Source of the DNA: a virus | DNA length: 25,371 nucleotides | Virus record (IMG/VR): IMGVR_UViG_3300020457_000086 | Location: 1 to 25,371 of that record | Reading direction: 5' to 3' (one strand) | In this document: one piece after another, positions 12,159 to 25,186 of the stretch | Layout of the letters: each line of letters opens with the position of its first letter | How positions within the stretch are numbered: the first letter of the stretch is position 1 | Notes under the pieces: generated by a model | The model's database searches: none | What the model was told of the DNA's origin: nothing | The model's input: only the letters and a program-made list of their open reading frames with translations | Program-made: the position numbers and the translations under genes

Positions 12159-15100
12159 ATGCCCCTTAATAAACTAGAGAATTTTGTCAAGAATACTGAA
12201 GGTCGTATTCTTTATGTGAATCCAAATGATATTGATTCGACTGATGCTATCACGAATCAAGGTAATTCACTGGCACAACCATTTAAAACAATTCAACGTG
12301 CTTTACTTGAATCTTCGAGATTTTCGTATGTAAGAGGAGCAAATAACGATTTAATTGAAAGAACAACTATATTAATATATCCTGGCGAGCATGAAGTTGA
12401 TAATAGACCTGGTTTTGCATTAAAGGATGTGGGATCAACTGCAACAGCAGTATCACCTTCTGGTGCAGAAACAGCAGCACAAACTACTCTATCACTAGAT
12501 TTAACATCAAATTTTGATTTAGCACAAGAAGATAATATACTTTATAAGTTTAATAGTATCAATGGTGGTGTAATTGTTCCTCGTGGTACATCAATCGTTG
12601 GACTAGATTTAAGAAAGACAAAGATAAAACCAAAATATGTTCCTAACCCAACTGATTCATCAGCACCTAGCACAGCACTATTCCGTGTAACAGGTACTTG
12701 CTACTTCTGGCAGTTCTCTATTTTTGATGGTGATGAAGGTGGTTTAGTTTATACAGACCCGATTGATTTCTCTGCAAATAATCAGTCTACTCCTAGTTTC
12801 TCACACCACAAACTAACTTGTTTTGAGTATGCTGATGGTGTAAACATTGATAATAGATTTGGATTAACTGACTTAGAGATATACTATGCAAAGTTATCAA
12901 ACGCATTTAATGTAGCATCTACAAGAGATATTGATCAGAAATATCCAGCATCAACCGAAGGATTTGCACCACAAAGACCTGAGTTTGAAATCGTTGGTGC
13001 ATTTGCATCTGATCCACTCAGTATTTCTACACTTATATCTGGTGATGGTTCAACACCAGGCAATGTTATCACAGTAACAACCACAACTCCTCACGGTTTG
13101 AGTAGTGGAACACCGATAAAGGTCAAAGGAGTTTCAGTACCAGACTATAATATATCCACAAAGGTTGCAAGTATATTAAGTGGTACACAATTTACATACT
13201 TACTTCCATTTGTAAGACCAAACTTATTAGCAACACCACAATCTGTATCTTCTGCAACAATTACGATTGAAACTGATACGGTGACAGGTGCATCACCTTA
13301 TATCTTTAACGTATCATTACGTTCCGTATTTGGTATGAATGGTGTTCTTGCCGATGGTGCGAAGGCAACTGGATTTAGAAGTATTGTTGTCGCACAGTTC
13401 ACTGGTATCTCACTACAGAAAGATGATAGAGCATTTGTAAAATATAATCCTACTTCAAGAGCATATGAAGGTATTACAATTCAACTCTCAAAAGGTGCTT
13501 CATTATCAAAAGAGTCTTCTTCACTAGATCCATCAACAGTTTATCATTTAGATAGTGATGCTATCTACAGAAAAGGATTCGAGACAACTCATATTAATAT
13601 GAAGAATGATGCGATCATGCAGATCGTATCCGTATTTGCGATTGGATTTAATAAGCACTTTAATGCAGAGACAGGTAGTGACGCATCAGTTACTAACTCT
13701 AACTCAAACTTTGGACAGATTGCACTTACATCTGATGGATTTAAGAAATCAGCATTTAGTAAAGACGATACAGCATATATCAGTAATATAATCACACCAA
13801 GAGCTATAACTGAGAGTCCAGTTACAGTTGATTGGCAATCATTAGATGTTGGACTTACTACATCAGTAGGTATCTCAAGTCATCTATACTTATTTGGATT
13901 CAATGACTTTGATGATAAACCACCTGTAATCATTCAGGGTTATCGTGTTGGTGCAAAATCAAATGATGTTTTATCATTAAATGCAGGTGGATCAATAAAG
14001 ACAGCATCTATCAATATGACTGATAGTGTTGTAAGTGCTGCATCTTCTGTAGTCACAGGTACAAGCATAAGTTCAAAACTATTCAGAGTTGAGTCAGGTC
14101 CATCATTCATACAAAATGATACTGCCTCATCAAATATTTTCACAATAGGAACTCATACACTTCAAACAGGTGAAAAAATCCGTGTGTTTAGTGATGATGG
14201 TGACTTACCAGAAAACATAGAAGTTAATACAGTTTACTTTGTAATTAAAATATCATCAACAGAAATCAAACTTGCATCTTCTGTAACTAATGCACAAAAT
14301 AATGTTGCGATTACAGTTTTTGGTGGAACAAAATTATTCGTAGAGAGTCGAGTATCTGACAAATCATCTGGTGATATAGGTTCACCTATTCAGTTTGATA
14401 CTGTAAATAAAAACTGGTTCGTTCATGTTCCAACAACAAACGATATTTACACTTCACTTGAAACTCAAGGTGTAACTGGACTTACTTCAAAGAGTAATGT
14501 AACAACAATCTCTAGAACAGTAGATTCTAGATCACTTGATGAAAGATTATATACAGTTCGTGTTGTTGTACCAAAAGAAGCACCAAATGCAAAAGATCCT
14601 AATGATGGTTTCGTCATACAGGAATCAAGTACAACTGGTGTAAGAGCAAGCACAGACTTCTCATTAAGAACAATTGATGCAAGTGATGTATTCTTTGATC
14701 GTAACCCAAGATTCATCAGTACCTGTTCAGCTGCTGGAAGCACAGTTACTGTAAGAACAGAGTTACCACACAACTTGAATGTTAACGATAAGATTAATAT
14801 TCTTAATGTAAAGAGTTCAAATAATACCACTGGTGTAGCAAACTCTGCATTTAATGGTACATTCTCAGTATCAGCAATCAATAGTGACAAGGAGTTCCAA
14901 CACACAACTACTGATACCAATGGTTCAGTTCATAATACTGGAAACTTTACAAGTGATACATCTGATAGAACTACGAGTTTACCAAGATTCCAAAGAAACG
15001 ATTTACAATCAAATCACTACATCTATCGAAGTGAAGTAATAAGTGATTACATTAAAGATGTACAAGATGGTATCTATCATCTATTCGTATTAAAAGCAGA

Positions 15101-17522
15101 CAATGCAATCAATACTGAATTTACGGATCAAAAGTATAGTCAGAATGTTTCTGATTTATATCCACAGCAAGATAAAGATAATATAAACGACAATCCTCCA
15201 TCTTCTGTATCATTCGCAAGAAGAAATCCTATTGGTGATGTTGTTACTAATAGTTTGAAGAATAGTATCACCAGAGAAGCAAACGATAAGTTACTACAAG
15301 ATTTTGGTAGAGGACTTAAGATTACAAGTGTTGACTCAACAACTGGTGTCTCTACACTAACATTTGATAGAGAGCATGGATTGAGTGGTATCGTAACTTA
15401 CTCTGACTTCACAGGTGGAGTTGGATATGACAACGGAACATATCATAATATTAAATTATTCAATGAAGGAACAACCACTTGGGATGGTGCAACTGCAAAG
15501 GTTACAATATCAGGTGGATCAATAACTAAATTTGATGTTACTGATGGTGGATCTGGTTATGGTGCAGAAAAATTAGAGTTTGACCCTACATTTATAGGTT
15601 CACCAAGTATTGGTGCAGCAGCTACCTTTACTTCAGTTGGTATCTCATCAAACATTGGTGATGTATTACAAGTAACTGGAATTGGAACATTAACTGATGG
15701 TTACTTCAGAATATCTTCAGTACCATCTACTAAAACTGTTGCGATTGCAAAGACAGGTGGTGATACTTCATTCTTATCAGGTCAGTTTGCATTAAATATA
15801 GGTCCTGCTGTAGCGATATCATCTGATGATTTTGAATCAGTTAGTGGTGTATCAACATTTACCTGTAGTTCTGCTCACGGATTGACAATCGGAAGTCCAT
15901 TTAGAATTATTGATAGTTCAAATAATAAATTAGGTGACTTTACAGTTAAGGAAAGAGTTGGAATTAAAACCTTCTCTGCGAAAACAGATGCTAATTTAAG
16001 TGGAGCATTTGTCCTACAACATGGTATGAGTGCTGGTGATGCAACATCTGGTGCTGATGGAGAAAATCTTGGTACGAGAGGTTTATCATTCTATAATAAT
16101 GAAGTTTTAAATCTAACAGATGATTTAACAACTGGTTCAATAATGAAAGTTCAAGTGCCAAATGCTGGTATTGGAACTGCGATTCGTTTCCCACTAGGTT
16201 CATATGTTCAGATAGATGGAGAAATACTACGAGTTACCACATCAGAATTATCTGGTAGTGGATTAGATGAGGTTGGTGTTGTTCGTGGTGCTTTGGGAAG
16301 TATCAAACAAGATCATTTAACTGGATCATTAGTTAAGAAAATCACACCAATACCAATTGAATTTAGAAGACCATCAATCATTCGTGCTTCTGGTCACACA
16401 TTTGAATACATTGGTTATGGTCCTGGTAACTATTCTACTGGTTTACCTCAAGTTCAGGTTAAGACTCTTACAGAAAGAGAAGAGTTCTTAGTTCAATCAC
16501 AAGAAAGATCTTGTGGACAGGTTGTTTATACTGGTATGAACAATGAAGGTGACTTCTTTATTGGTAACAAGAGAGTTAGTTCATCAACTGGACAGGAGAA
16601 AACATTTGACGCTCCAGTTCCAACAGTAACAGGTGAAGATCCATCAAGATTAAGTGTTGTATTTGATGAAGTAACAATCAAAGAAAGACTTAAGGTTGAA
16701 GGTGGAACATCAAGAACAATCCTATCTCAGTTCGATGGTCCTGTTAACTTTAGTAAAGATGTCAGATTTGATGCTGATACATCTATATCAAAGACACTTA
16801 CATTATCACAAGGAACACAATCCACATCAACAACTACAGGTGACTTAATTGTATCTGGTGGTGTTGGTATTGCAAAGAGTGTTTATATTGGTGGTGACTT
16901 AACAATATCTGGTACATTTAATGGTGGTGCTGTTGAGTTTGGTAATATTAAAGTTGCACAAACTGATGACAATACCATTGATACTAAATCTGGCAATCTT
17001 AAAATTAGTTCTGCTGGATCAGTTGAAGTTATTGATGACTTAAATGTTGCTGGTATTTTAAGTGCTACAGGTAATGTAACTCTTGGAAATGCAACAAGTG
17101 ATGCAACCACAGTATCTGGAACTCTTGCAGTTCAATCAACCACAAACTCAACCAGCAAGACAACTGGTGCGGTAGTCGTAAGTGGTGGTGTTGGAATTAA
17201 TAATGATCTTCATGTTGGTGGAGACATTACTGCATTCTCATCATCAGATAGAAACTTAAAAGAGAACATTGTTGTCATACCAAATGCACTAGATAAAATC
17301 AATGCAATTAGTGGTAACACATTCACTTGGAAATCTAATAGTGATACTTTCCTACAAGGAGATGATACTGGTGTGATTGCACAAGAAGTTGAAGCACTTG
17401 GATTACCTGGCATAACAACAACTAGGGATGATGGTGTTAAAGCAGTAAATTATGATAAATTAATTCCTGTTTTAATACAGGCAATTAAAGAACTATCTGC
17501 GAAAGTAGACGCACTATCCTAA
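12159..17522 (+). CDS. Giant tail fibre with C-terminal S74 self-cleaving chaperone
   Basis: This 1787-aa protein has a pectate-lyase-like N-terminal block (ILYVNPNDIDSTDAI, PFKTIQRALLES, ILIYPGEHE) typical of marine T4-like phage fibres, suggesting a beta-helix. Four diverged HGL-type beta modules follow (PHGLSSGTPIKVKG near 13088, PHNLNVNDKINI near 14765, EHGLSG near 15370, AHGLTIGSPFRI near 15873) and a GGSGY module near 15549. Two copies of a VSGGVGI...GGD unit precede the end. The last 92 residues are a Peptidase_S74 intramolecular chaperone: Ser1696-Asp-Arg-Asn-Leu-Lys1701 fits the Ser-Lys dyad of endosialidase-type cleavage, and the rest (TGVIAQEVEALG, VNYDKLIPVLIQAIKEL) fits the helical trimerising stem. 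Cleavage before Ser1696 would release this domain after the fibre trimer folds. Likely a long, host-recognising fibre. Confidence 0.88.
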   Translation: MPLNKLENFVKNTEGRILYVNPNDIDSTDAITNQGNSLAQPFKTIQRALLESSRFSYVRGANNDLIERTTILIYPGEHEVDNRPGFALKDVGSTATAVSPSGAETAAQTTLSLDLTSNFDLAQEDNILYKFNSINGGVIVPRGTSIVGLDLRKTKIKPKYVPNPTDSSAPSTALFRVTGTCYFWQFSIFDGDEGGLVYTDPIDFSANNQSTPSFSHHKLTCFEYADGVNIDNRFGLTDLEIYYAKLSNAFNVASTRDIDQKYPASTEGFAPQRPEFEIVGAFASDPLSISTLISGDGSTPGNVITVTTTTPHGLSSGTPIKVKGVSVPDYNISTKVASILSGTQFTYLLPFVRPNLLATPQSVSSATITIETDTVTGASPYIFNVSLRSVFGMNGVLADGAKATGFRSIVVAQFTGISLQKDDRAFVKYNPTSRAYEGITIQLSKGASLSKESSSLDPSTVYHLDSDAIYRKGFETTHINMKNDAIMQIVSVFAIGFNKHFNAETGSDASVTNSNSNFGQIALTSDGFKKSAFSKDDTAYISNIITPRAITESPVTVDWQSLDVGLTTSVGISSHLYLFGFNDFDDKPPVIIQGYRVGAKSNDVLSLNAGGSIKTASINMTDSVVSAASSVVTGTSISSKLFRVESGPSFIQNDTASSNIFTIGTHTLQTGEKIRVFSDDGDLPENIEVNTVYFVIKISSTEIKLASSVTNAQNNVAITVFGGTKLFVESRVSDKSSGDIGSPIQFDTVNKNWFVHVPTTNDIYTSLETQGVTGLTSKSNVTTISRTVDSRSLDERLYTVRVVVPKEAPNAKDPNDGFVIQESSTTGVRASTDFSLRTIDASDVFFDRNPRFISTCSAAGSTVTVRTELPHNLNVNDKINILNVKSSNNTTGVANSAFNGTFSVSAINSDKEFQHTTTDTNGSVHNTGNFTSDTSDRTTSLPRFQRNDLQSNHYIYRSEVISDYIKDVQDGIYHLFVLKADNAINTEFTDQKYSQNVSDLYPQQDKDNINDNPPSSVSFARRNPIGDVVTNSLKNSITREANDKLLQDFGRGLKITSVDSTTGVSTLTFDREHGLSGIVTYSDFTGGVGYDNGTYHNIKLFNEGTTTWDGATAKVTISGGSITKFDVTDGGSGYGAEKLEFDPTFIGSPSIGAAATFTSVGISSNIGDVLQVTGIGTLTDGYFRISSVPSTKTVAIAKTGGDTSFLSGQFALNIGPAVAISSDDFESVSGVSTFTCSSAHGLTIGSPFRIIDSSNNKLGDFTVKERVGIKTFSAKTDANLSGAFVLQHGMSAGDATSGADGENLGTRGLSFYNNEVLNLTDDLTTGSIMKVQVPNAGIGTAIRFPLGSYVQIDGEILRVTTSELSGSGLDEVGVVRGALGSIKQDHLTGSLVKKITPIPIEFRRPSIIRASGHTFEYIGYGPGNYSTGLPQVQVKTLTEREEFLVQSQERSCGQVVYTGMNNEGDFFIGNKRVSSSTGQEKTFDAPVPTVTGEDPSRLSVVFDEVTIKERLKVEGGTSRTILSQFDGPVNFSKDVRFDADTSISKTLTLSQGTQSTSTTTGDLIVSGGVGIAKSVYIGGDLTISGTFNGGAVEFGNIKVAQTDDNTIDTKSGNLKISSAGSVEVIDDLNVAGILSATGNVTLGNATSDATTVSGTLAVQSTTNSTSKTTGAVVVSGGVGINNDLHVGGDITAFSSSDRNLKENIVVIPNALDKINAISGNTFTWKSNSDTFLQGDDTGVIAQEVEALGLPGITTTRDDGVKAVNYDKLIPVLIQAIKELSAKVDALS

Positions 17523-17544: not shown

Positions 17545-19452
17545 ATGGCGAGTATAAGAAAATCATTTAGTTTCCGAAACGGAGTACAAGTTGACGAAGA
17601 TAATTTTATCGTTAACGCTAATGGCTTGGTTGGTATCGGAACTTCCGTGCCATCTGAGTTTTTAGATGTAAGAGGAACAGCAAAGGTTGTTGGATTAGTA
17701 ACAGCATCAGATTTATTTGTATCTGGTGTTTCTACAATCACAGAGATTCAAGTTGGAAGTGCAATAACAATAGGTAATAGTGGAGTAATAACAGCAACAT
17801 CATTTAAGGGTGACGGTTCAACATTATCAAACCTACCTACATCACAATGGGAAGATGTTAATTTAGGTTTAGGGTTTACTTCAATATATGCAATAGGTAA
17901 TGTTGGTATCGCTACCACAGATCCTAGACAGAGTTTCCAAGTTGGTGGAGATCCATCTGCTACAGGTAAGATAGGAGTTGGTATCAATTCGATTGGTAAT
18001 ATTCGTGCATCTGGTATCATAACTGCTACGAGTTTAGTTGGAGCATTAACTGGTAATGTTGTTGGTAATGTAACTGGAGATTTAACAGGAGCAGTCACAG
18101 GTAATGTAACTGGTAATTTAACTGGTAATGTAACAGGAAATATCAATTCATCAGGAGTATCAACATTTTCACAACTGTCAGTTACGAGTTTAGTCAATGT
18201 TGGAACTGCTGCTACATTCAATACTGCTGGACTTGATGTAACGGGTGTAACAACATCTACGAGTTTTGATGGAGCATTAACAGGAAATGTTACGGGTAAT
18301 GTAACTGGTAATTTAACAGGTGATGTATCTGGTGATATTAATTCAGGTGTAACCACAGCATCAACAGAGATTAATGTTGGCACAGGTGGTACAGCATTTA
18401 CATCATTAAACACAGGTAAAGTTGGAATCGGAACTGCAATTCCTGGTTTAGATGTCTCGATTAGAAAAGAAGCAAACACATCTGTTGAGATTGTATCTGA
18501 TAGTGGCACAACAAAAGTTAGTGTAGGTAATTCAGTAAGTGCAGGTAAGAGTACAGGTATATTAAGATTTGGAAATGAGTCAAATACATTTGATGTAATC
18601 AATAATGATACAGGTGATCTAAACTTTATACTAGATGGAGATAGTAATAGTGGATCAGGTAACTTTAAGTTTGTAGATAATGTAACTGAAAGAGCAAGAC
18701 TTACTAACGATGGTAAGTTAGGTATCGCAATTACAAATCCAGCACATCAACTCCATGTGGTTGGAACATCTACAGTCACAAGTAACGCATTTGTAGGTGG
18801 AAATTTATCAGTCGGTGGTACAATTACAGGTTCTCTATCATTAGGTAATGTAATTGAAGGAACAAATGTTCTCACAACATCTGGTATATCTACATTTAAA
18901 CAAATTAATGTTACAAGTAAGATTGGATTTAGTTCTGCAATACCAGCTTGCGATATTGATTTCCAACAGGCAACAGCATCATTCTCTTCAGTAGGTATTG
19001 GAACTACAAATCCTGGCACTAGATTGAAAGCAGTTGGTACATCAATGTTTGAAACCATTGGTATTAACACAACTTCAATTAAAACTGATCCGTCATTTAG
19101 TGCTGGTAATTTACAGATTGTTGGTGATAGATTTGCATTATTTGATGCACAGATTAGATTTGACTTTGCAAGACAATCTAAGATAGGATTTGGTACAATA
19201 GGAGATACACTTAACGGAAGTATTGACCTTAGAAGAGCAGGTGAAAATAGCATTTCACCGTGGGCGTTCTTACCTGAAATGTCTACAACAGTTAGAAATA
19301 CTAAAACAACTGCTACAGGTCAAAGTGCAAGTGGCATTGGAACAGGTGCAGTAATATATAATACAACAACAAATAGAGTTGAGATATACCTACCTGATGG
19401 AGATTCAAGTGCTAATGTAACTAATTGGGTTGGAGTCGCAACAGTCGCTTAA
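17545..19452 (+). CDS. Repeat-containing tail fibre protein (635 aa)
   Basis: The N-terminus MASIRKSFSFRNGVQVDEDN is that of a fibre attachment region. Five copies of a VGIGTTNP-type motif occur (VGIGTSVP at residues 29-36, VGIATTDP, VGIGTAIP, LGIAITNP and VGIGTTNP), each followed by a short beta segment, as in other fibre shafts. Two arrays of Leu/Val-Thr-Gly-Asn tetrapeptides at residues 168-199 and 245-264 suggest a regular beta fibre. The C-terminus (GAVIYNTTTNRVEIYLPDG) is a small beta tip with no S74 domain, unlike the giant fibre before it. It could pair with that fibre in one appendage. Only three bases separate its stop from the halogenase ATG, so the halogenase is probably in the same transcript. 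Confidence 0.82.
   Translation: MASIRKSFSFRNGVQVDEDNFIVNANGLVGIGTSVPSEFLDVRGTAKVVGLVTASDLFVSGVSTITEIQVGSAITIGNSGVITATSFKGDGSTLSNLPTSQWEDVNLGLGFTSIYAIGNVGIATTDPRQSFQVGGDPSATGKIGVGINSIGNIRASGIITATSLVGALTGNVVGNVTGDLTGAVTGNVTGNLTGNVTGNINSSGVSTFSQLSVTSLVNVGTAATFNTAGLDVTGVTTSTSFDGALTGNVTGNVTGNLTGDVSGDINSGVTTASTEINVGTGGTAFTSLNTGKVGIGTAIPGLDVSIRKEANTSVEIVSDSGTTKVSVGNSVSAGKSTGILRFGNESNTFDVINNDTGDLNFILDGDSNSGSGNFKFVDNVTERARLTNDGKLGIAITNPAHQLHVVGTSTVTSNAFVGGNLSVGGTITGSLSLGNVIEGTNVLTTSGISTFKQINVTSKIGFSSAIPACDIDFQQATASFSSVGIGTTNPGTRLKAVGTSMFETIGINTTSIKTDPSFSAGNLQIVGDRFALFDAQIRFDFARQSKIGFGTIGDTLNGSIDLRRAGENSISPWAFLPEMSTTVRNTKTTATGQSASGIGTGAVIYNTTTNRVEIYLPDGDSSANVTNWVGVATVA
18046..18336 (+). repeat. Two arrays of (L/V)TGN tetrapeptide repeats
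   Basis: Positions 18046-18141 encode eight tetrapeptides (LTGN VVGN VTGD LTGA VTGN VTGN LTGN VTGN) and 18277-18336 encode five (LTGN VTGN VTGN LTGD VSGD). Both arrays follow nearly the same 12-base-register lead-in that encodes Gly-Ala, so the second probably arose by duplication of the first or both expand and contract by recombination. Confidence 0.85.
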
Positions 19453-19455
19453 TTT

Positions 19456-20916
19456 ATGAAAAAAATTGTTATTGTAGGAGCGGGAACTGCTGGTTTAGCA
19501 GCTGCCGCTATGATGAAAAGTTATTGGAATGAAAAGGTAGATATAAGTTTAATATATGATGCTAGTAAAGGTAACATTTCAGTAGGAGAAAGTACAACAC
19601 CTATCTTTAGATTGTTGTTAGCACATTTGGGTGTATCAACAAAGCAACTTATTAAAGATATTGGTGGTAAGGCAACAATTAAATTAGGAATTAATTTTAA
19701 AAACTGGATTCCGAATACAAATTACTTTCATGGTTTTGCCGAAGTTAATTCAGAGATAGGCACTAATACAAGTGCGATATATTCAATACCATCTGGAGAG
19801 TTTAATGGTGGTACAAACTATAATACTGCAGCTACAACTATACCAAATAAACCTTTTGAGGATTATGGATATGCAATGCACATTGATACGAAGGTATTTT
19901 GTGAATACATTACAGATAGATTAAAAAATAGAGTTAAATTTATAGATGACAGGGTAGAAAATGTTATTGTACAGGACAATAAGATAACACAAATTGAGTG
20001 TAAGAATAGTGGTGTTGTTGAAGCAGATTTATTTGTAGATGCCTCTGGTTTCAATTCTGTTTTATTCAGACATTTGAATTCTACTTGGCACGATACTTCT
20101 GATGTTTTACCAATAGATCGTGCGATACCACAGCAAGTCCCTTATGATTTTAAGGAGACACCTGCATATACTACTTGTGAAGCAACAAAGAATGGTTGGA
20201 TATGGCAAATACCAATTGGAGATAGATTTGGTACAGGATATTTGTATTCATCTAAATTTACAACAGACGAGGAGGCACGAGATGATTATGATAAATGGCT
20301 ACGAGAAAAGTTTGATGTAGGATTAGAGACTGATAGAATAATAAGATATAAACCTGGTTACTACGAGGATTATTGGGTGGGTAATTGTCTTGCCATAGGA
20401 TTGTCGAGTGGGTTTATTGAACCACTTGAAGCAACTGGTATTCAGATTATCATTCAACAGATACAAGAGTTTATGATTATCAATTCTACCTTGAAGGATC
20501 TTGAATATAATCGAACTATTGTTAATAAAGGAAATCGCACACTATATACTGATATTATTGATTTTGTTGCATTGCATTACTGTACAAATCGAACAGACTC
20601 AATGTTTTGGAACTATATGACTCATAATAAATGTAATTGGGTTAGAAATTTTGAAGAGAAATGTAAGGAAGAATTTTTAGATACTCGTACTTGTTACAAG
20701 GAAAAAACATTCTGGGGATTAGATAGTTTCATTCAGGTTTGCTATGGTTTAAAGATGTTTGATCGAGAGTCAATTAAAAGTTTCTTATTATCAAAAGTTG
20801 ATGGTAAAGATATATTTAATGACGCTCAGGGTAATCACGAGTTCTTGGAGAATGAGAAGAAAAAGATTAAACAAATTTCTCATAAAAAAGTATTAGACCT
20901 TATTGTAAATAAATGA
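19456..20916 (+). CDS. Flavin-dependent (tryptophan-type) halogenase
   Basis: The 486-aa enzyme has all the diagnostic parts of the FAD-dependent halogenase family: the FAD-binding GAGTAG at residues 8-13; GES at 44-46; the catalytic Lys76 in IKLGINFKNW, aligned with the conserved Lys79 of PrnA; the GWIWQIP signature at 247-253, which is the WxWxIP motif keeping monooxygenase activity low; and SGFIEPLEATGI at 318-329, with Glu325 matching the second catalytic residue. Such enzymes use FADH2, O2 and halide to form HOX, which is passed to Lys to halogenate an aromatic substrate; a separate flavin reductase, not present here, must supply FADH2. Cyanophage Syn10 carries a known relative (VirX1). 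It is embedded between fibre and adhesin genes; an ATGA overlap couples it to the next ORF. The substrate is unknown. Confidence 0.9.
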   Translation: MKKIVIVGAGTAGLAAAAMMKSYWNEKVDISLIYDASKGNISVGESTTPIFRLLLAHLGVSTKQLIKDIGGKATIKLGINFKNWIPNTNYFHGFAEVNSEIGTNTSAIYSIPSGEFNGGTNYNTAATTIPNKPFEDYGYAMHIDTKVFCEYITDRLKNRVKFIDDRVENVIVQDNKITQIECKNSGVVEADLFVDASGFNSVLFRHLNSTWHDTSDVLPIDRAIPQQVPYDFKETPAYTTCEATKNGWIWQIPIGDRFGTGYLYSSKFTTDEEARDDYDKWLREKFDVGLETDRIIRYKPGYYEDYWVGNCLAIGLSSGFIEPLEATGIQIIIQQIQEFMIINSTLKDLEYNRTIVNKGNRTLYTDIIDFVALHYCTNRTDSMFWNYMTHNKCNWVRNFEEKCKEEFLDTRTCYKEKTFWGLDSFIQVCYGLKMFDRESIKSFLLSKVDGKDIFNDAQGNHEFLENEKKKIKQISHKKVLDLIVNK

Positions 20917-21176
20917 TTATCTTTTCTTTCATACTCTCATTATTTGCTAATCATCTACCTGTAATGTACGTTCAAGTACCACAATGGGCAGATGATTGGG
21001 CAGTTTGTGCAGTAGATATACCAGACGCAAAGTGTCATTGGTATGTTATGGCTCCCGATAATACATTTGGAGAGGGTTTTGATTGGGAAAGTGCGCCTTG
21101 GTTTGATGCAAATGGACTTAGTGACATTGCACCGATGCAAAATAAGACAGTACTAGAAAAGTTACAAGATAAATAA
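20913..21176 (+). CDS. Small Trp-rich protein downstream of the halogenase (87 aa)
   Basis: The ATG overlaps the halogenase stop by four bases, suggesting coupled translation. The first 17 residues are hydrophobic (MIIFSFILSLFANHLPV) and could be a signal or anchor, although translation could instead begin at the Met18 (MYVQVPQW). The body holds five Trp residues (25, 29, 43, 58, 63) and two Cys, Cys32 and Cys41, which may form a disulfide if exported. No family is recognised. Its position directly after the halogenase makes it a candidate partner or substrate, but no sequence feature proves this. Confidence 0.65.
   Translation: MIIFSFILSLFANHLPVMYVQVPQWADDWAVCAVDIPDAKCHWYVMAPDNTFGEGFDWESAPWFDANGLSDIAPMQNKTVLEKLQDK
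21169..21175 (+). promoter_or_regulatory. Late-promoter-like ATAAATA
   Basis: GATAAATAAAA overlaps the stop of the 87-aa ORF, 14 bases before the next ATG. A modest AAAAGG Shine-Dalgarno-like sequence follows. Weak match; AT-rich context. Confidence 0.25.
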
Positions 21177-21189
21177 AAATAAAAGGTAA

Positions 21190-21375
21190 ATGGGTTACTA
21201 CATCAAAAAGACAGGATTATCAGGTAAAACAGTCTATTGGACAGGTGGTGTTCATTGGTCTGATGATGATTCAAAGAAAAAAGTATATGCAACTAAAAGC
21301 ACAGCAGATAGCAAAATTGTGAATACTGATGGTAAAAATGGTGGTTGGAAAGGTGCTACAGTAGTGAGTGAATAA
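21190..21375 (+). CDS. Small phage protein, YYIKK/W-rich (61 aa)
   Basis: The protein MGYYIKKTGLSGKTVYWTGG continues with VHWSDDDSKKKVYATKSTAD and ends NGGWKGATVVSE. It looks like a compact beta domain with Trp17, Trp23 and Trp53, and it resembles small standalone modules I have seen in marine T4-like phages, but I cannot name it. Its stop shares one base with the next ATG (TAATG), so it is coupled to the Gly-rich adhesin gene. A role as an adhesin-associated or chaperone-like protein is possible from position. Confidence 0.7.
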   Translation: MGYYIKKTGLSGKTVYWTGGVHWSDDDSKKKVYATKSTADSKIVNTDGKNGGWKGATVVSE

Positions 21376-22502
21376 TGGCAATCACAGTTTCTAAAACAGG
21401 ACCTTTCTTCACATCTGGTGCTATAAGTTTTAGTGCGATGAGAAATACATTTCGGTTGAATAATCCAACTGGAACTATCTCTGCATCTGAACTTTTAAGA
21501 AATACTGATACAACTAATATTGATCCAATACTACCTGATGCAACAGAGAATATTGATGTTGCAACAACTTCTGATTGGAAGACATCACAGATACGAGATA
21601 GTATTAAATTTTATAATGTGACTCAACCTAGTGGAGACACAAACATAAATTTTGATATTGATGCACAGGCATGGAATGGTAATTTAGCTAGAAACATAGT
21701 TAAGAAATTAAATCTAGAAGGAACTTGTGGTTCTAACTCAACATCATTGAGGGCAGCACAGGTCGATCAAGGAGCAAATAATTTAACAATAGATGTAAGT
21801 GGAGATATATTTGGATGTGGTGCTGATGCCACGACAACAGGACCTGATGGTGCTAACGGTGGGGATGCACTTGGAATCACAGGTGGTGGAAATAATATAA
21901 AAGTTAATCTACAATCTACTGCGAGAATTTATGGAGGTGGTGGTGCTGGAGAACATGGAGCTCAAGGTGCTACTGGACAGAGTGGAACTTGTTTTGATTA
22001 TATTTTTGGTACAGTAGCAAGTGGATGTGGATTTTGTGGAGACTGTAGTAATCTTGGAGCAGGGTACGAGAGATTTGGTGGATGTGCAAATGCAGGTGGA
22101 TGTAACTGTGGTGGATGGTGGTTCTGGTCAGGTTGTGCAAGCACGATTCTAACAACTGCTGAGTGTCGTAAGCAAGACCCACAAACTGTTGCAGGTGGAG
22201 CAGGTGGTACTGGTGGAGATGGTGGTAGAGGAAGAGGATTTAATTTCCAATCAGGTTCACTTGCAGGAGCATCTGGTGGAGCGGGTTCAGCATTTAGTGG
22301 ATGTAGTGGTTTTACAGGCACAATAGCATCTGGTGGTACAGGTGCTACTGGAGAGACAGGTGCTTCAGGTGGTGAGTGGGGATTAAGTGGTGGTGATACT
22401 GCAAACACAGGTGATGGTGGTGATGCAGGTGCAGCAATATTCCCCTCTGGTATCTCAGTTACAGGTTCTATAAACTCTAATACAATAAAAGGTTCTTATT
22501 AA
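21375..22502 (+). CDS. Gly-rich, Cys-rich putative receptor-binding adhesin
   Basis: The 375-aa protein starts with a helical/beta attachment segment (GAISFSAMRNTFRLNNP, ISASELLRNTDTTN) of the kind found at the start of phage fibre-tip proteins. Residues about 130-360 are Gly-rich (GGGGAGEHGAQGATGQSG, GGAGGTGGDGGRGRG, GGTGATGETGASGG), which suggests polyglycine-II packing like the S16 gp38 adhesin. Residues 206-264 form an insert with nine Cys (206, 218, 221, 224, 237, 243, 245, 254, 264) and an aromatic WWFW at 248-251. The Gly-rich scaffold would present the Cys-rich loop at the tip. It is probably the host-receptor adhesin; the Cys cluster may be disulfide-bonded outside the cell or bind metal. 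No homology search was possible. Confidence 0.75.
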   Translation: MAITVSKTGPFFTSGAISFSAMRNTFRLNNPTGTISASELLRNTDTTNIDPILPDATENIDVATTSDWKTSQIRDSIKFYNVTQPSGDTNINFDIDAQAWNGNLARNIVKKLNLEGTCGSNSTSLRAAQVDQGANNLTIDVSGDIFGCGADATTTGPDGANGGDALGITGGGNNIKVNLQSTARIYGGGGAGEHGAQGATGQSGTCFDYIFGTVASGCGFCGDCSNLGAGYERFGGCANAGGCNCGGWWFWSGCASTILTTAECRKQDPQTVAGGAGGTGGDGGRGRGFNFQSGSLAGASGGAGSAFSGCSGFTGTIASGGTGATGETGASGGEWGLSGGDTANTGDGGDAGAAIFPSGISVTGSINSNTIKGSY

Positions 22503-22517
22503 TTCTTTGATTTTATT

Positions 22518-22787
22518 ATGAAAAAATATCCACCCCTACTACAACAGGGAAAGAATCTCGTATTGACAATCGGGAGGATAGTTGATACAATACGAGATAA
22601 GAACTCGCAGTTAGTAACTCCGAGAAAGATGTATTGGCGACGCATCGAGATATGTAAAAGTTGTTCGAGTTGTGACCAGAGACAGAAAAGATGTATGGAA
22701 TGTGGATGTTTTATCCCTGCCAAAGCAAAGATTGTTGTTGAGGCTTGCCCACTAGGGAAATGGGAAGAAGATGAACTTATTGATTGA
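22518..22787 (+). CDS. Small zinc-ribbon protein (89 aa)
   Basis: The N-terminus is helical (PPLLQQGKNLVLTIGRIVD). The C-terminal part contains CKSCSSC (Cys46, Cys49, Cys52), RCMECGC (Cys59, Cys62, Cys64) and ACPLGKW (Cys77), the pattern of a small Cys-rich zinc ribbon frequent in T4-like marine phages. The full-length start at 22518 is favoured because the N-terminal Leu-rich helix is also present in the family as I recall it. A TTGACA-N17-TACAAT match inside the gene, and an in-frame ATG at 22629, would allow a 52-aa form with the zinc ribbon only. The gene overlaps the following oxygenase by 17 bases. Function is unknown; structural metal binding is likely. Confidence 0.75.
   Translation: MKKYPPLLQQGKNLVLTIGRIVDTIRDKNSQLVTPRKMYWRRIEICKSCSSCDQRQKRCMECGCFIPAKAKIVVEACPLGKWEEDELID
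22563..22591 (+). promoter_or_regulatory. Possible internal sigma70-type promoter, TTGACA-N17-TACAAT
   Basis: TTGACA is at 22563-22568 and TACAAT at 22586-22591 with a 17-base spacer, eleven of twelve consensus bases. It lies inside the zinc-ribbon ORF, so it may be chance, or may drive a short zinc-ribbon form and the oxygenase gene. Confidence 0.35.
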
Positions 22788-23307
22788 GGACAATTTTTTT
22801 AAAAATCCTGATGTATTGAGAAGGATGGCATTGGATTGCGATTATATTGATAGTGAACAAGTTAAAATTGATGTAGGTTGGAGAGGATATAGAACAGATG
22901 AGTTTGAAGTTATAGGTAATGAAGATTTGATTACTGCAAGTGATGAAGTCAGACAGGCAGTATGTAAACATTATAATCTAGAGGGGTATTCTATATCTTC
23001 ACATTTTCATTTGTCTCATTTAGGAACTAAGAAAACTCTACCAGACTTTGAGAATAAGAAATATCATTTCGATCAATGTGAATATGCAGGGGTTGTATAT
23101 TTAAAACCGAGTCCACCCAAAGGAACAGGAACATCTATTTTAGATGGTGCGAGAAATAAAATAGAGAGTGTTGATAACAAATACAATCGTTTAACTGCTT
23201 ACCCTGCACATCATATTCATGCACCCACAGATTTGTTTGGGAATGATTTTACTACAGGTAGATTGACCCTTACATTTTTTATGGCAAAAGATTGGACTTG
23301 GGATTGA
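22771..23307 (+). CDS. 2-oxoglutarate/Fe(II)-dependent oxygenase-like protein
   Basis: The 178-aa protein has the double-stranded beta-helix dioxygenase layout. His99-x-Asp101 (HFD) is followed by YAGVVYLKP, then a GTGTSI strand, then NRLTAYPAHHIHAP with a distal His (probably His150), and finally TTGRLTLTFF, in which Arg164 fits the 2-oxoglutarate-binding basic residue. It is near the DUF6445/prolyl-hydroxylase-like class of small phage oxygenases. The substrate cannot be told: free amino acid, peptide, nucleotide or DNA base are possible. A terminator follows about 65 bases downstream, so this is the last gene of the fibre block. It overlaps the zinc-ribbon ORF by 17 bases. Confidence 0.7.
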   Translation: MNLLIEDNFFKNPDVLRRMALDCDYIDSEQVKIDVGWRGYRTDEFEVIGNEDLITASDEVRQAVCKHYNLEGYSISSHFHLSHLGTKKTLPDFENKKYHFDQCEYAGVVYLKPSPPKGTGTSILDGARNKIESVDNKYNRLTAYPAHHIHAPTDLFGNDFTTGRLTLTFFMAKDWTWD

Positions 23308-23427: not shown

Positions 23428-23997
23428 ATGCTTGATAGTGGCAAACTAATGTATTCGAGTGGTAACAATGATGAGTGTTACACACCCGACTATGGTGTAG
23501 AACCAATATTGAAATACATTCCAGAGGGTGCTACTGTATGGTGTCCTTTTGATACAGAGGAGAGTCAGTTTGTAAAGCAAATATCAGAACAGAATGAAGT
23601 AGAATATTCGCATATATCAACTGGTCACGATTTTTTTGATTATGAACCTGACGAGTGGGATGTAATGGTATCAAACCCACCATTCACAAATAAGAGAAAG
23701 TATTTTGAAAGAGCATTAGATCTTGGCAAACCCTTTGCCTTGATAATGACAAATACTTGGTTGAATGACTCAGCACCAAAACAACTGTTCAAAGATAAAG
23801 ACCTACAGTTGTTGATGTTTGATAAGAGAATGAAATTTATAAGTCCTGATGGTAGAAAAAATGATAAGATCACATTCAGCAGTAGTTACTATTGTTGGAA
23901 CTTTCTACCAAAACAAATTATTATGGAAGAACTACAAGTGACAAATAAGAAAGTGGCACAAGATGTAGAGACACCCCTTACAAAACTGTTATCATAG
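23428..23997 (+). CDS. NPPF-motif DNA methyltransferase-like protein (189 aa)
   Basis: The sequence DECYTPDYGVEPILKYIP, TVWCPFDTEESQFVK and then DVMVSNPPFTNKRKYFERAL follows the layout of N6-adenine methyltransferase-superfamily proteins, with motif IV NPPF at residues 83-86. The SAM-binding motif I would be at CPFDTEESQFV, but it lacks the usual Gly-rich loop, so SAM binding is not certain. The C-terminal helix region is Lys-rich. It lies 20 bases before the UvsW-like helicase gene, and a DNA methyltransferase fragment follows the helicase, suggesting a modification or anti-restriction function. It could instead be a catalytically changed relative. No close named family is recognised. Confidence 0.62.
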   Translation: MLDSGKLMYSSGNNDECYTPDYGVEPILKYIPEGATVWCPFDTEESQFVKQISEQNEVEYSHISTGHDFFDYEPDEWDVMVSNPPFTNKRKYFERALDLGKPFALIMTNTWLNDSAPKQLFKDKDLQLLMFDKRMKFISPDGRKNDKITFSSSYYCWNFLPKQIIMEELQVTNKKVAQDVETPLTKLLS

Positions 23998-24016: not shown

Positions 24017-25186
24017 ATGCAACTAAGACCACATCAAAACGAAGCACTTACAAAGATGAGATTCAGTAGAAAAGGACAAGTGATTGTTCCTACTGGTGGT
24101 GGTAAGACAATGTGCATGATCGAAGATGCGAAGAGAAGATTTGCACAGGATAGTTTACCAAAGACTATTGTAGTTGTTGCACCTCGCATCTTACTTGCAA
24201 GTCAGTTATCAGCAGAGTTCCTAGAGTTCATTACCGATGCTGATGTGATTCACGTTCATAGTGGAGAGACACATCACAAGAGTACAACAAAGGCAGATGA
24301 GTTAGAGTATATGGTTAACAATAGTACAGAGAACTTACTTATATTCACTACATATCATTCACTACACAGAGTCGAGGAGACAGGTATTGAAGTTGATACT
24401 ATCTACTTTGACGAAGCACATAATTCAGTACAGAAGAACTTTTACCCTGCTACTGATTACTTCTCAAGAAATGCAGATAGGTGCTACTTCTTTACAGCAA
24501 CACCAAAGCACAGTCGTACAGGTGCAAAGGCAGGTATGAACTGGTCAAAGACTTATGGTAATGTGATATGCCAAATCCCTGCACCAAGACTTGTCAAGCA
24601 GGGATATATACTACCACCAAAGGTTCAAGTCTATAAGTCAAGAATACTTAAGAAAGATGAGTTAGTTGCTGATAGAGACAATGAGCAAATGATTGATGCT
24701 ATTGATAACCTAGACAAAGATAAGGTATTGATATGTGCTAAGTCAACCAGACAGATTGTTGCACTTGTATCACAGACAGACTTTGTGAAGCAACTTGCAG
24801 TTCGTGGTTACTCTTATATGTACATCACAGCAAAGACAGGTGCGGTTATTGACGGAGAGAAGGTTGACAGAGAGACTTTCTTTGATACTCTTAATGAATG
24901 GGGTAGAAACGGTAAAAAGTTTGTTGTACTTCATCACAGCATACTCTCAGAGGGTATCAATGTCAATGGTCTTGAAGCAGTATTGTTTATGAGATCAATG
25001 GATTACATAGGTATCTCACAGACAATCGGTAGAGTTATTCGTAAGGGTAATGCAGACAAAGTATTTGGACTTGTATGTATTCCTGTTTACTCTAACGTAG
25101 GTATCTCTACTGCAAGAAAGGTCGAAGCAGTTGTTGATACTATATTCAACAAAGGAGAGGCGGCAACATCAATCGTAAACACATGA
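24017..25186 (+). CDS. uvsW: SF2 DNA/RNA helicase, UvsW-like
   Basis: The 389-aa protein contains the SF2 motifs in order: RPHQNEAL near the N-terminus, Walker A PTGGGKT at residues 25-31, VVVAPRILLASQ, DEAH at 132-135, TATP at 160-163, LICAKSTRQIVAL, the SEGINV motif and QTIGRVIRKGN as motif VI. In T4, UvsW is about 587 aa and unwinds branched DNA and R-loops to switch replication from origins to recombination; this is a shorter protein with both helicase cores but no large N-terminal domain. It may therefore be a UvsW relative or a generic Res-subunit-like helicase. The stop overlaps the next ATG by four bases. Confidence 0.8.
   Translation: MQLRPHQNEALTKMRFSRKGQVIVPTGGGKTMCMIEDAKRRFAQDSLPKTIVVVAPRILLASQLSAEFLEFITDADVIHVHSGETHHKSTTKADELEYMVNNSTENLLIFTTYHSLHRVEETGIEVDTIYFDEAHNSVQKNFYPATDYFSRNADRCYFFTATPKHSRTGAKAGMNWSKTYGNVICQIPAPRLVKQGYILPPKVQVYKSRILKKDELVADRDNEQMIDAIDNLDKDKVLICAKSTRQIVALVSQTDFVKQLAVRGYSYMYITAKTGAVIDGEKVDRETFFDTLNEWGRNGKKFVVLHHSILSEGINVNGLEAVLFMRSMDYIGISQTIGRVIRKGNADKVFGLVCIPVYSNVGISTARKVEAVVDTIFNKGEAATSIVNT

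Follow-up and report, generated by a model that had tools for sequence, protein, structure and literature searches.

Why would a virus carry the gene for a flavin-dependent halogenase among the genes of its tail fibres? The question arises from a 25,371-base IMG/VR virus fragment, IMGVR_UViG_3300020457_000086, which belongs to a T4-like phage and which we call the window, meaning the whole stretch of DNA analysed. Among isolates, Synechococcus phage S-SRM01 (Kyanoviridae), from fresh water, comes closest to it, and the hosts would be aquatic bacteria, probably cyanobacteria; a megablast search of the window end against phages gave no match. The features around the halogenase gene are as follows.

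12159-17522, + strand: long tail fibre distal subunit, 1787 aa, with a C-terminal Peptidase_S74 chaperone (phrog_529, E 0; PF13884, 6.7e-12)
17545-19452, + strand: second tail fibre protein (TF2), 635 aa, immediately 5' of the halogenase (phrog_3269, 2.9e-63)
19456-20916, + strand: flavin-dependent halogenase, 486 aa (PF04820, 3.8e-86; phrog_2928, 2e-96; AlphaFold model; dN/dS)
20913-21176, + strand: Trp-rich ORF of 87 aa, hydrophobic at its start and overlapping the stop codon of the halogenase (phrog_14182, 3.6e-44, annotated "esterase", a label that looks doubtful given the 87-aa length)
21190-21375, + strand: small ORF of 61 aa between halogenase and adhesin (phrog_24339, 8.6e-17)
21375-22502, + strand: glycine-rich gp38-like adhesin tip, 375 aa, with a Cys-flanked Trp-rich loop (alignment; the S-SRM01 orthologue is annotated as adhesin tip)
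22518-22787, + strand: DUF6171-like ORF of 89 aa, conserved 3' neighbour of the adhesin (PF19668, 4.4e-07)
22771-23307, + strand: DUF6445 protein, 178 aa, putative 2-oxoglutarate/Fe(II) oxygenase with H99-x-D101, H150 and R164 (PF20043, 3e-06)
23428-23997: short DNA methyltransferase-like ORF (phrog_799, only part of the profile matched)
24017-25186: DEAD/DEAH helicase, which relatives also keep at the adhesin locus

An apparently functional halogenase of a known family

The gene at 19456-20916 is a complete ORF running from ATG to TGA, and it holds every motif that an earlier note on this DNA had named in claiming an intact active site: GAGTAG (residues 8-13), Lys76 in TIKLGINF, WIWQIP (248-253) and Glu325 in PLEATG. 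Its match to PF04820 (Trp_halogenase) scores 290 bits, against a gathering score of 21. Across 21 diverse phage halogenases, no variation occurs at G8, G10, G13, K76, W248, P253 and E322-P-L, and conservation of W250 and E325 reaches 90% or more; Lys76 aligns with the catalytic Lys of solved halogenases (Lys79 in PrnA), and Glu325 is the equivalent of the catalytic Glu346 in PrnA. Structure prediction, which had been put forward as a check, supports the assignment: the AlphaFold2 model (pLDDT 88.7) matches PyrH, PrnA, RebH and other solved halogenases, with PyrH as the best PDB match in Foldseek (2wet; 1.2e-35, TM 0.84), and the least certain residues of the model, 318-321, adjoin the catalytic Glu325. 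The gene is also under strong purifying constraint, as judged by dN/dS values of 0.04-0.10 against near relatives. By its motifs and predicted fold, it apparently encodes a working flavin-dependent halogenase, which would be catalytically active. With PrnA, RebH and PyrH it shares the common fold, GxGxxG, the catalytic Lys, WxWxIP, the catalytic Glu and the His and Phe of the indole sandwich, but its identity to them is ~25%, its length is 486 aa versus 511-550 aa, and the Ser that follows their catalytic Glu is Ala in the window enzyme.

The nearest isolate relative of the enzyme is the tryptophan halogenase of S-SRM01 (PQC13_gp052, YP_010670027.1; 52% identity over 95%), and since that gene was already annotated, the halogenase gene itself is not new. 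The paper on S-SRM01 does not discuss it (PMC8557907). In a tree of 119 phage and bacterial halogenases, the window enzyme falls within a phage-only clade (100 SH-aLRT). The window gene thus adds one more member to an enzyme family already known; the novelty lies in the conserved unit of fibre, halogenase and adhesin, which a protein-hydroxylase-like partner may or may not accompany.

The halogenase occupies one specific fibre-adhesin junction

The gene begins three bases behind the preceding fibre gene, as the earlier note had said (the fibre gene ends at 19452 and the halogenase ATG lies at 19456). The coupling to the next ORF that the note had also described exists in the window, where the halogenase stop overlaps the ATG at 20913 (ATGA), but it is peculiar to this phage, because none of the related loci read (L003-L009 included) has a counterpart of the ORF at 20913-21176 between its halogenase and adhesin genes. 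What is conserved around the halogenase is a fibre gene on the 5' side and an adhesin gene on the 3' side, with TF2 as the neighbour at position -1 and the long tail fibre gene at position -2 in relatives too. The window and S-SRM01 share the order long tail fibre distal subunit, tail fibre, halogenase, adhesin tip, DUF6171-like ORF and helicase, the S-SRM01 locus lacking the 61-aa ORF, the 87-aa ORF and the DUF6445 gene at the equivalent place. The 61-aa ORF is kept in near relatives only (L003-L005 and L007, 85-89% identity), and the long-fibre/fibre/halogenase/adhesin order recurs in IMG/VR relatives down to ~46% halogenase identity. In some phages the halogenase-adhesin gap is taken up by small ORFs (61-84 aa) that show a YYI...YW/YYQG...W pattern (window 21190-21375; L028:7833-8015; L141:5726-5977).

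Two sets of loci were compared, one chosen by halogenase similarity alone, not for fibres, and the other gathered through an adhesin search, with and without a halogenase. Within the halogenase-chosen set, the fibre-halogenase-adhesin arrangement is kept in L003-L009; in L013-L015 the same gene string encodes a collagen-like, glycine-rich tail protein ~4 kb ahead of the halogenase, and in L016 the fibre genes lie ~5 kb upstream. Three loci of the window's own clade are exceptions (L010-L012), with no fibre gene within the stretch examined; there the helicase lies downstream of the halogenase on the opposite strand. Behind the collagen-like tail protein, a protein of 404-424 aa and another of 87-89 aa (L013:4558-5769 and its relatives L014, L015 and L031) are conserved along with oxygenases and a pair of halogenase-like genes.

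Among 40 dereplicated fibre-adhesin junctions, 28 hold a halogenase, a count raised by the fact that part of the set was fetched by halogenase similarity; 12 are empty, and none (0/40) holds other cargo without a halogenase, a zero that the sampling leaves unaffected. One further ORF, small or oxygenase-like, accompanies the halogenase in 8/28 junctions, and in two of these eight (L009 and L173) a 2OG-oxygenase-like gene lies beside it. Gaps adjoining the halogenase measure at most 35 nt, on the same strand, and the gaps of empty junctions at most 70 nt. Because the junction holds a halogenase or nothing, with other cargo alone in 0/40, a generic insertion hotspot is not supported and would not be expected to give such counts. 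The location within a fibre operon, as originally proposed, is therefore borne out as a conserved and near-exclusive arrangement in relatives.

A protein-hydroxylase-like enzyme is a frequent partner

The DUF6445 protein encoded beyond the adhesin retains H99, D101, H150 and R164, which are invariant in 18 relatives and form the pattern of 2-oxoglutarate/Fe(II) oxygenases with a double-stranded beta-helix fold, namely the HxD...H iron triad and the 2OG-binding Arg. Its predicted structure (pLDDT 93.1) matches OGFOD1, Pseudomonas prolyl-4-hydroxylase (P4H) and PHD2 (5e-06 to 1e-04, TM ~0.6), and these closest structures all act on proteins, the Pseudomonas enzyme on EF-Tu and PHD2 as the HIF prolyl hydroxylase. 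We regard it as a putative 2OG-Fe(II) oxygenase resembling protein prolyl hydroxylases.

In one phage contig, the two enzymes are joined in a single 681-aa ORF, a halogenase fused to a DUF6445 domain (L092:7948-9990). Upstream of this fusion, across three small ORFs, lies a collagen-like fibre of 2216 aa that bears an S74 chaperone, and the fusion precedes a tail sheath gene; the same contig has a second, separate halogenase gene (503 aa) after the fusion ORF. DUF6445 is the next gene after the halogenase in 6/80 bacterial loci, and direct DUF6445-halogenase neighbours were seen in marine gammaproteobacteria (L197, L225, L228, L238, L240 and L254). Near the adhesin, DUF6445 genes occur in 7/29 halogenase-linked loci and in 4/22 loci without a halogenase. 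DUF6445 is thus a frequent, non-obligate partner of the halogenase at adhesin loci.

Reduced flavin would come from the host

No flavin reductase is present among the window proteins scanned, in agreement with the earlier note. The reductase family PF01613 was likewise not found in 12 related phage records, the complete S-SRM01 genome included, which would leave the supply of reduced flavin to the host; a PF01613 match is present in Synechococcus elongatus, one of the control genomes. Late expression of the halogenase would be plausible; the T4 late-promoter motif did not occur above chance.

A candidate target in the adhesin and a pocket possibly suited to indole

The adhesin shows gp38-type features, with glycine-rich motifs and variable loops in its alignment and a gene placed after the fibre genes, and an HHpred link to PF05268 was reported for the S-SRM01 orthologue (3.9e-07; PMC8557907). 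A search of the adhesin profile against the PDB gave no true match, gp38 structures included. The gp38 adhesins of Salmonella phage S16 and of PP01 likewise bear glycine-rich motifs and variable loops at the fibre tip (PMC6851490, PMC12892980); compared with them, the Cys/Trp-rich loop is a feature of the window-type adhesins.

This Cys-flanked loop spans residues 243-254 in the window (CNCGGWWFWSGC), and its S-SRM01 equivalent reads CNWWGNCWW. Trp is present in the loop of all halogenase-linked adhesins (27/27) versus 6/17 of those without a halogenase, an association that falls short of significance when kinship is taken into account. Halogenase presence or absence changes ~5 times (at least 5) on the adhesin tree, and a version of the test that counts knobs with at least three Trp goes both ways. 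The loop was rejected as proof of substrate, because with at most five independent pairs the pairwise test on the adhesin tree cannot reach significance; as a lead from the sequence, it is a candidate target of the halogenase. A reading of the small Trp-rich ORFs (20913-21375) as substrates of a precursor-like kind was weakened, the 87-aa ORF being missing from relatives and the 61-aa ORF present in some of them only.

The substrate pocket was compared with that of RebH, in which we take His109 and Phe111 to sandwich the indole and Tyr454, Tyr455 and Asn470 to bind the free amino acid. His92 and Phe94 of the window enzyme match His109 and Phe111, and Trp420 matches Trp466. RebH Tyr454, Tyr455, Glu461 and Asn470 align to Asp409, Thr410, Glu416 and Ser424, leaving Tyr454, Tyr455 and Asn470 without a counterpart in a C-terminal pocket where the alignment is weak. 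With the sandwich residues kept and the free-amino-acid residues unmatched, the pocket would fit either a protein-borne indole or some other indole compound. Enzymes of the same class, MibH, SrpI and ChlH, halogenate Trp in peptides, MibH doing so once proline has been hydroxylated (PMC12615548, PMC12518702). These enzymes differ in belonging to peptide-natural-product clusters with their own peptide substrate, and MibH (5uao) is the weakest among the PDB matches listed for the window enzyme (1.8e-24).

Fibre genes beside other phage halogenases

The comparison with VirX1 that the earlier note had drawn holds for gene context but not for close kinship. VirX1 (PDB 6QGM) is CPUG_00131 of Syn10, the second of two tandem halogenase genes, and like the window enzyme it is a phage flavin-dependent halogenase whose gene comes after tail-fibre genes, there accompanied by 2OG-Fe(II) oxygenases. 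Upstream of the Syn10 pair are matches to phrog_529, the family of the window long fibre, and to the fibre-assembly family phrog_863. The two enzymes are ~27% identical and lie in different well-supported clades, and the residue equivalent to window His92 is replaced in VirX1. Halogenase genes adjoin fibre, fibre-assembly or collagen-like genes in S-RIM44, P-SSM2 and the Actinomycetia phage DSL-LC01, and they lie away from fibre genes in Syn1, S-H38, S-SSM7 and S-B64, that of S-SSM7 within a carbamoyltransferase/sugar gene cluster. On many IMG/VR contigs, two to five halogenase paralogues alternate with 2OG-Fe(II) oxygenases; L058, L063, L054, L052 and L101 have three to five paralogues among many such oxygenases.

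Discussion

The conservation of the fibre-halogenase-adhesin arrangement in dozens of related viruses suggests a virus that chemically modifies its own attachment proteins. That the halogenase is dedicated to the receptor-binding proteins of the virion, modifying the adhesin or fibre, is in our judgement about evenly balanced between true and false, the protein substrate, the residue, the halide and the effect on attachment all being parts that we infer. It is the reading best supported by context, through the adhesin junction, the DUF6445 partner and the fusion beside a fibre; the place of VirX1 after fibre genes, the loop Trp counts (27/27 versus 6/17), the RebH pocket match and the MibH/SrpI/ChlH precedent also count for it. 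Against it stand the kinship-corrected Trp test, the placement of the gene in L010-L012, Syn1, S-H38, S-B64 and S-SSM7, the lack of DUF6445 in 22/29 loci and the weak C-terminal alignment to RebH. In such a mechanism, the halogenase would be made from the fibre-adhesin gene string, and a host reductase would provide reduced FAD to this two-component enzyme. Hypohalous acid formed by the halogenase would pass to Lys76, and exposed aromatic side chains, most likely Trp, at the adhesin tip or in the neighbouring fibre would be halogenated before or during assembly. The DUF6445 oxygenase would probably hydroxylate the same protein, making a two-enzyme cassette. The fuller proposal, in which Trp or its neighbours in the Cys-flanked adhesin loop are halogenated and DUF6445-hydroxylated, tuning host attachment, and VirX1-type viral halogenases in general have such fibre proteins as their native substrates, is one we hold tentatively and consider somewhat unlikely as a whole. 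Within the parts available of the open-licence literature found, neither such virion protein modification nor fibre modification by phage halogenases is proposed.

The main rival is an auxiliary metabolic gene acting on a small molecule of the infected host, such as free indole, a phenol or a pigment-related compound, the fibre position merely securing late expression. Since prnA-like genes came to notice in cyanophages, published opinion has had phage halogenases modifying metabolites or antibiotics (PMC2984593, PMC10452541), VirX1 accepts many small aromatics (PMC8407142), and the S-SSM7 gene sits among sugar genes; but a junction that holds a halogenase or nothing, the fusion and neighbour links to an oxygenase resembling protein hydroxylases, a window free of other biosynthetic genes and the unmatched free-Trp residues of RebH all speak against it, and we consider the small-molecule role unlikely. 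Decoration of a surface glycan, on the fibre or the host capsule, in concert with sugar enzymes and oxygenases would fit the S-SSM7 cluster content, the glycosyltransferase after the halogenase of phage DSL-LC01 and the capsular decoration or secondary metabolite proposed for the S-SSM6a gene cluster (PMC7824862). We think it very improbable, as no sugar enzymes are recognised in the window and flavin halogenases act on electron-rich aromatics and are not known to act on sugars.

The enzyme might instead act on protein-bound Trp of the adhesin as an oxygenase or cross-linker, like the tryptophylquinone builders QhpG, LodB and GoxB. Such a role is suggested by the conserved Cys beside Trp in the adhesin loop, by weak superfamily matches to all three and by QhpG, a flavoprotein resembling halogenases that dihydroxylates protein Trp (PMC7876137). 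These matches fall far under their cut-offs (GoxB 35 of 400 bits), the Pfam Trp_halogenase match is far stronger, and Lys76, WxWxIP and Glu325 are intact, which makes this the least probable of the explanations. Finally, fibre regions are generally plastic, and the gene could be an evolutionary hitchhiker, a moron at a variable host-range locus with no functional tie to fibres, as its presence or absence at the junction across the adhesin tree would allow. That other cargo is never alone at the junction, that selection on the halogenase is strongly purifying and that further fibre links exist (VirX1/Syn10, S-RIM44, P-SSM2, DSL-LC01 and L092) render it improbable.

For the modification of receptor-binding proteins, one specific fibre-adhesin junction, together with a fusion elsewhere to a protein-hydroxylase-like partner, allows concrete candidate substrates to be named in S-SRM01 and in the VirX1 phage. 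If true, phage receptor-binding proteins would be enzymatically modified, and phage halogenases would be natural protein halogenases, useful in protein chemistry.
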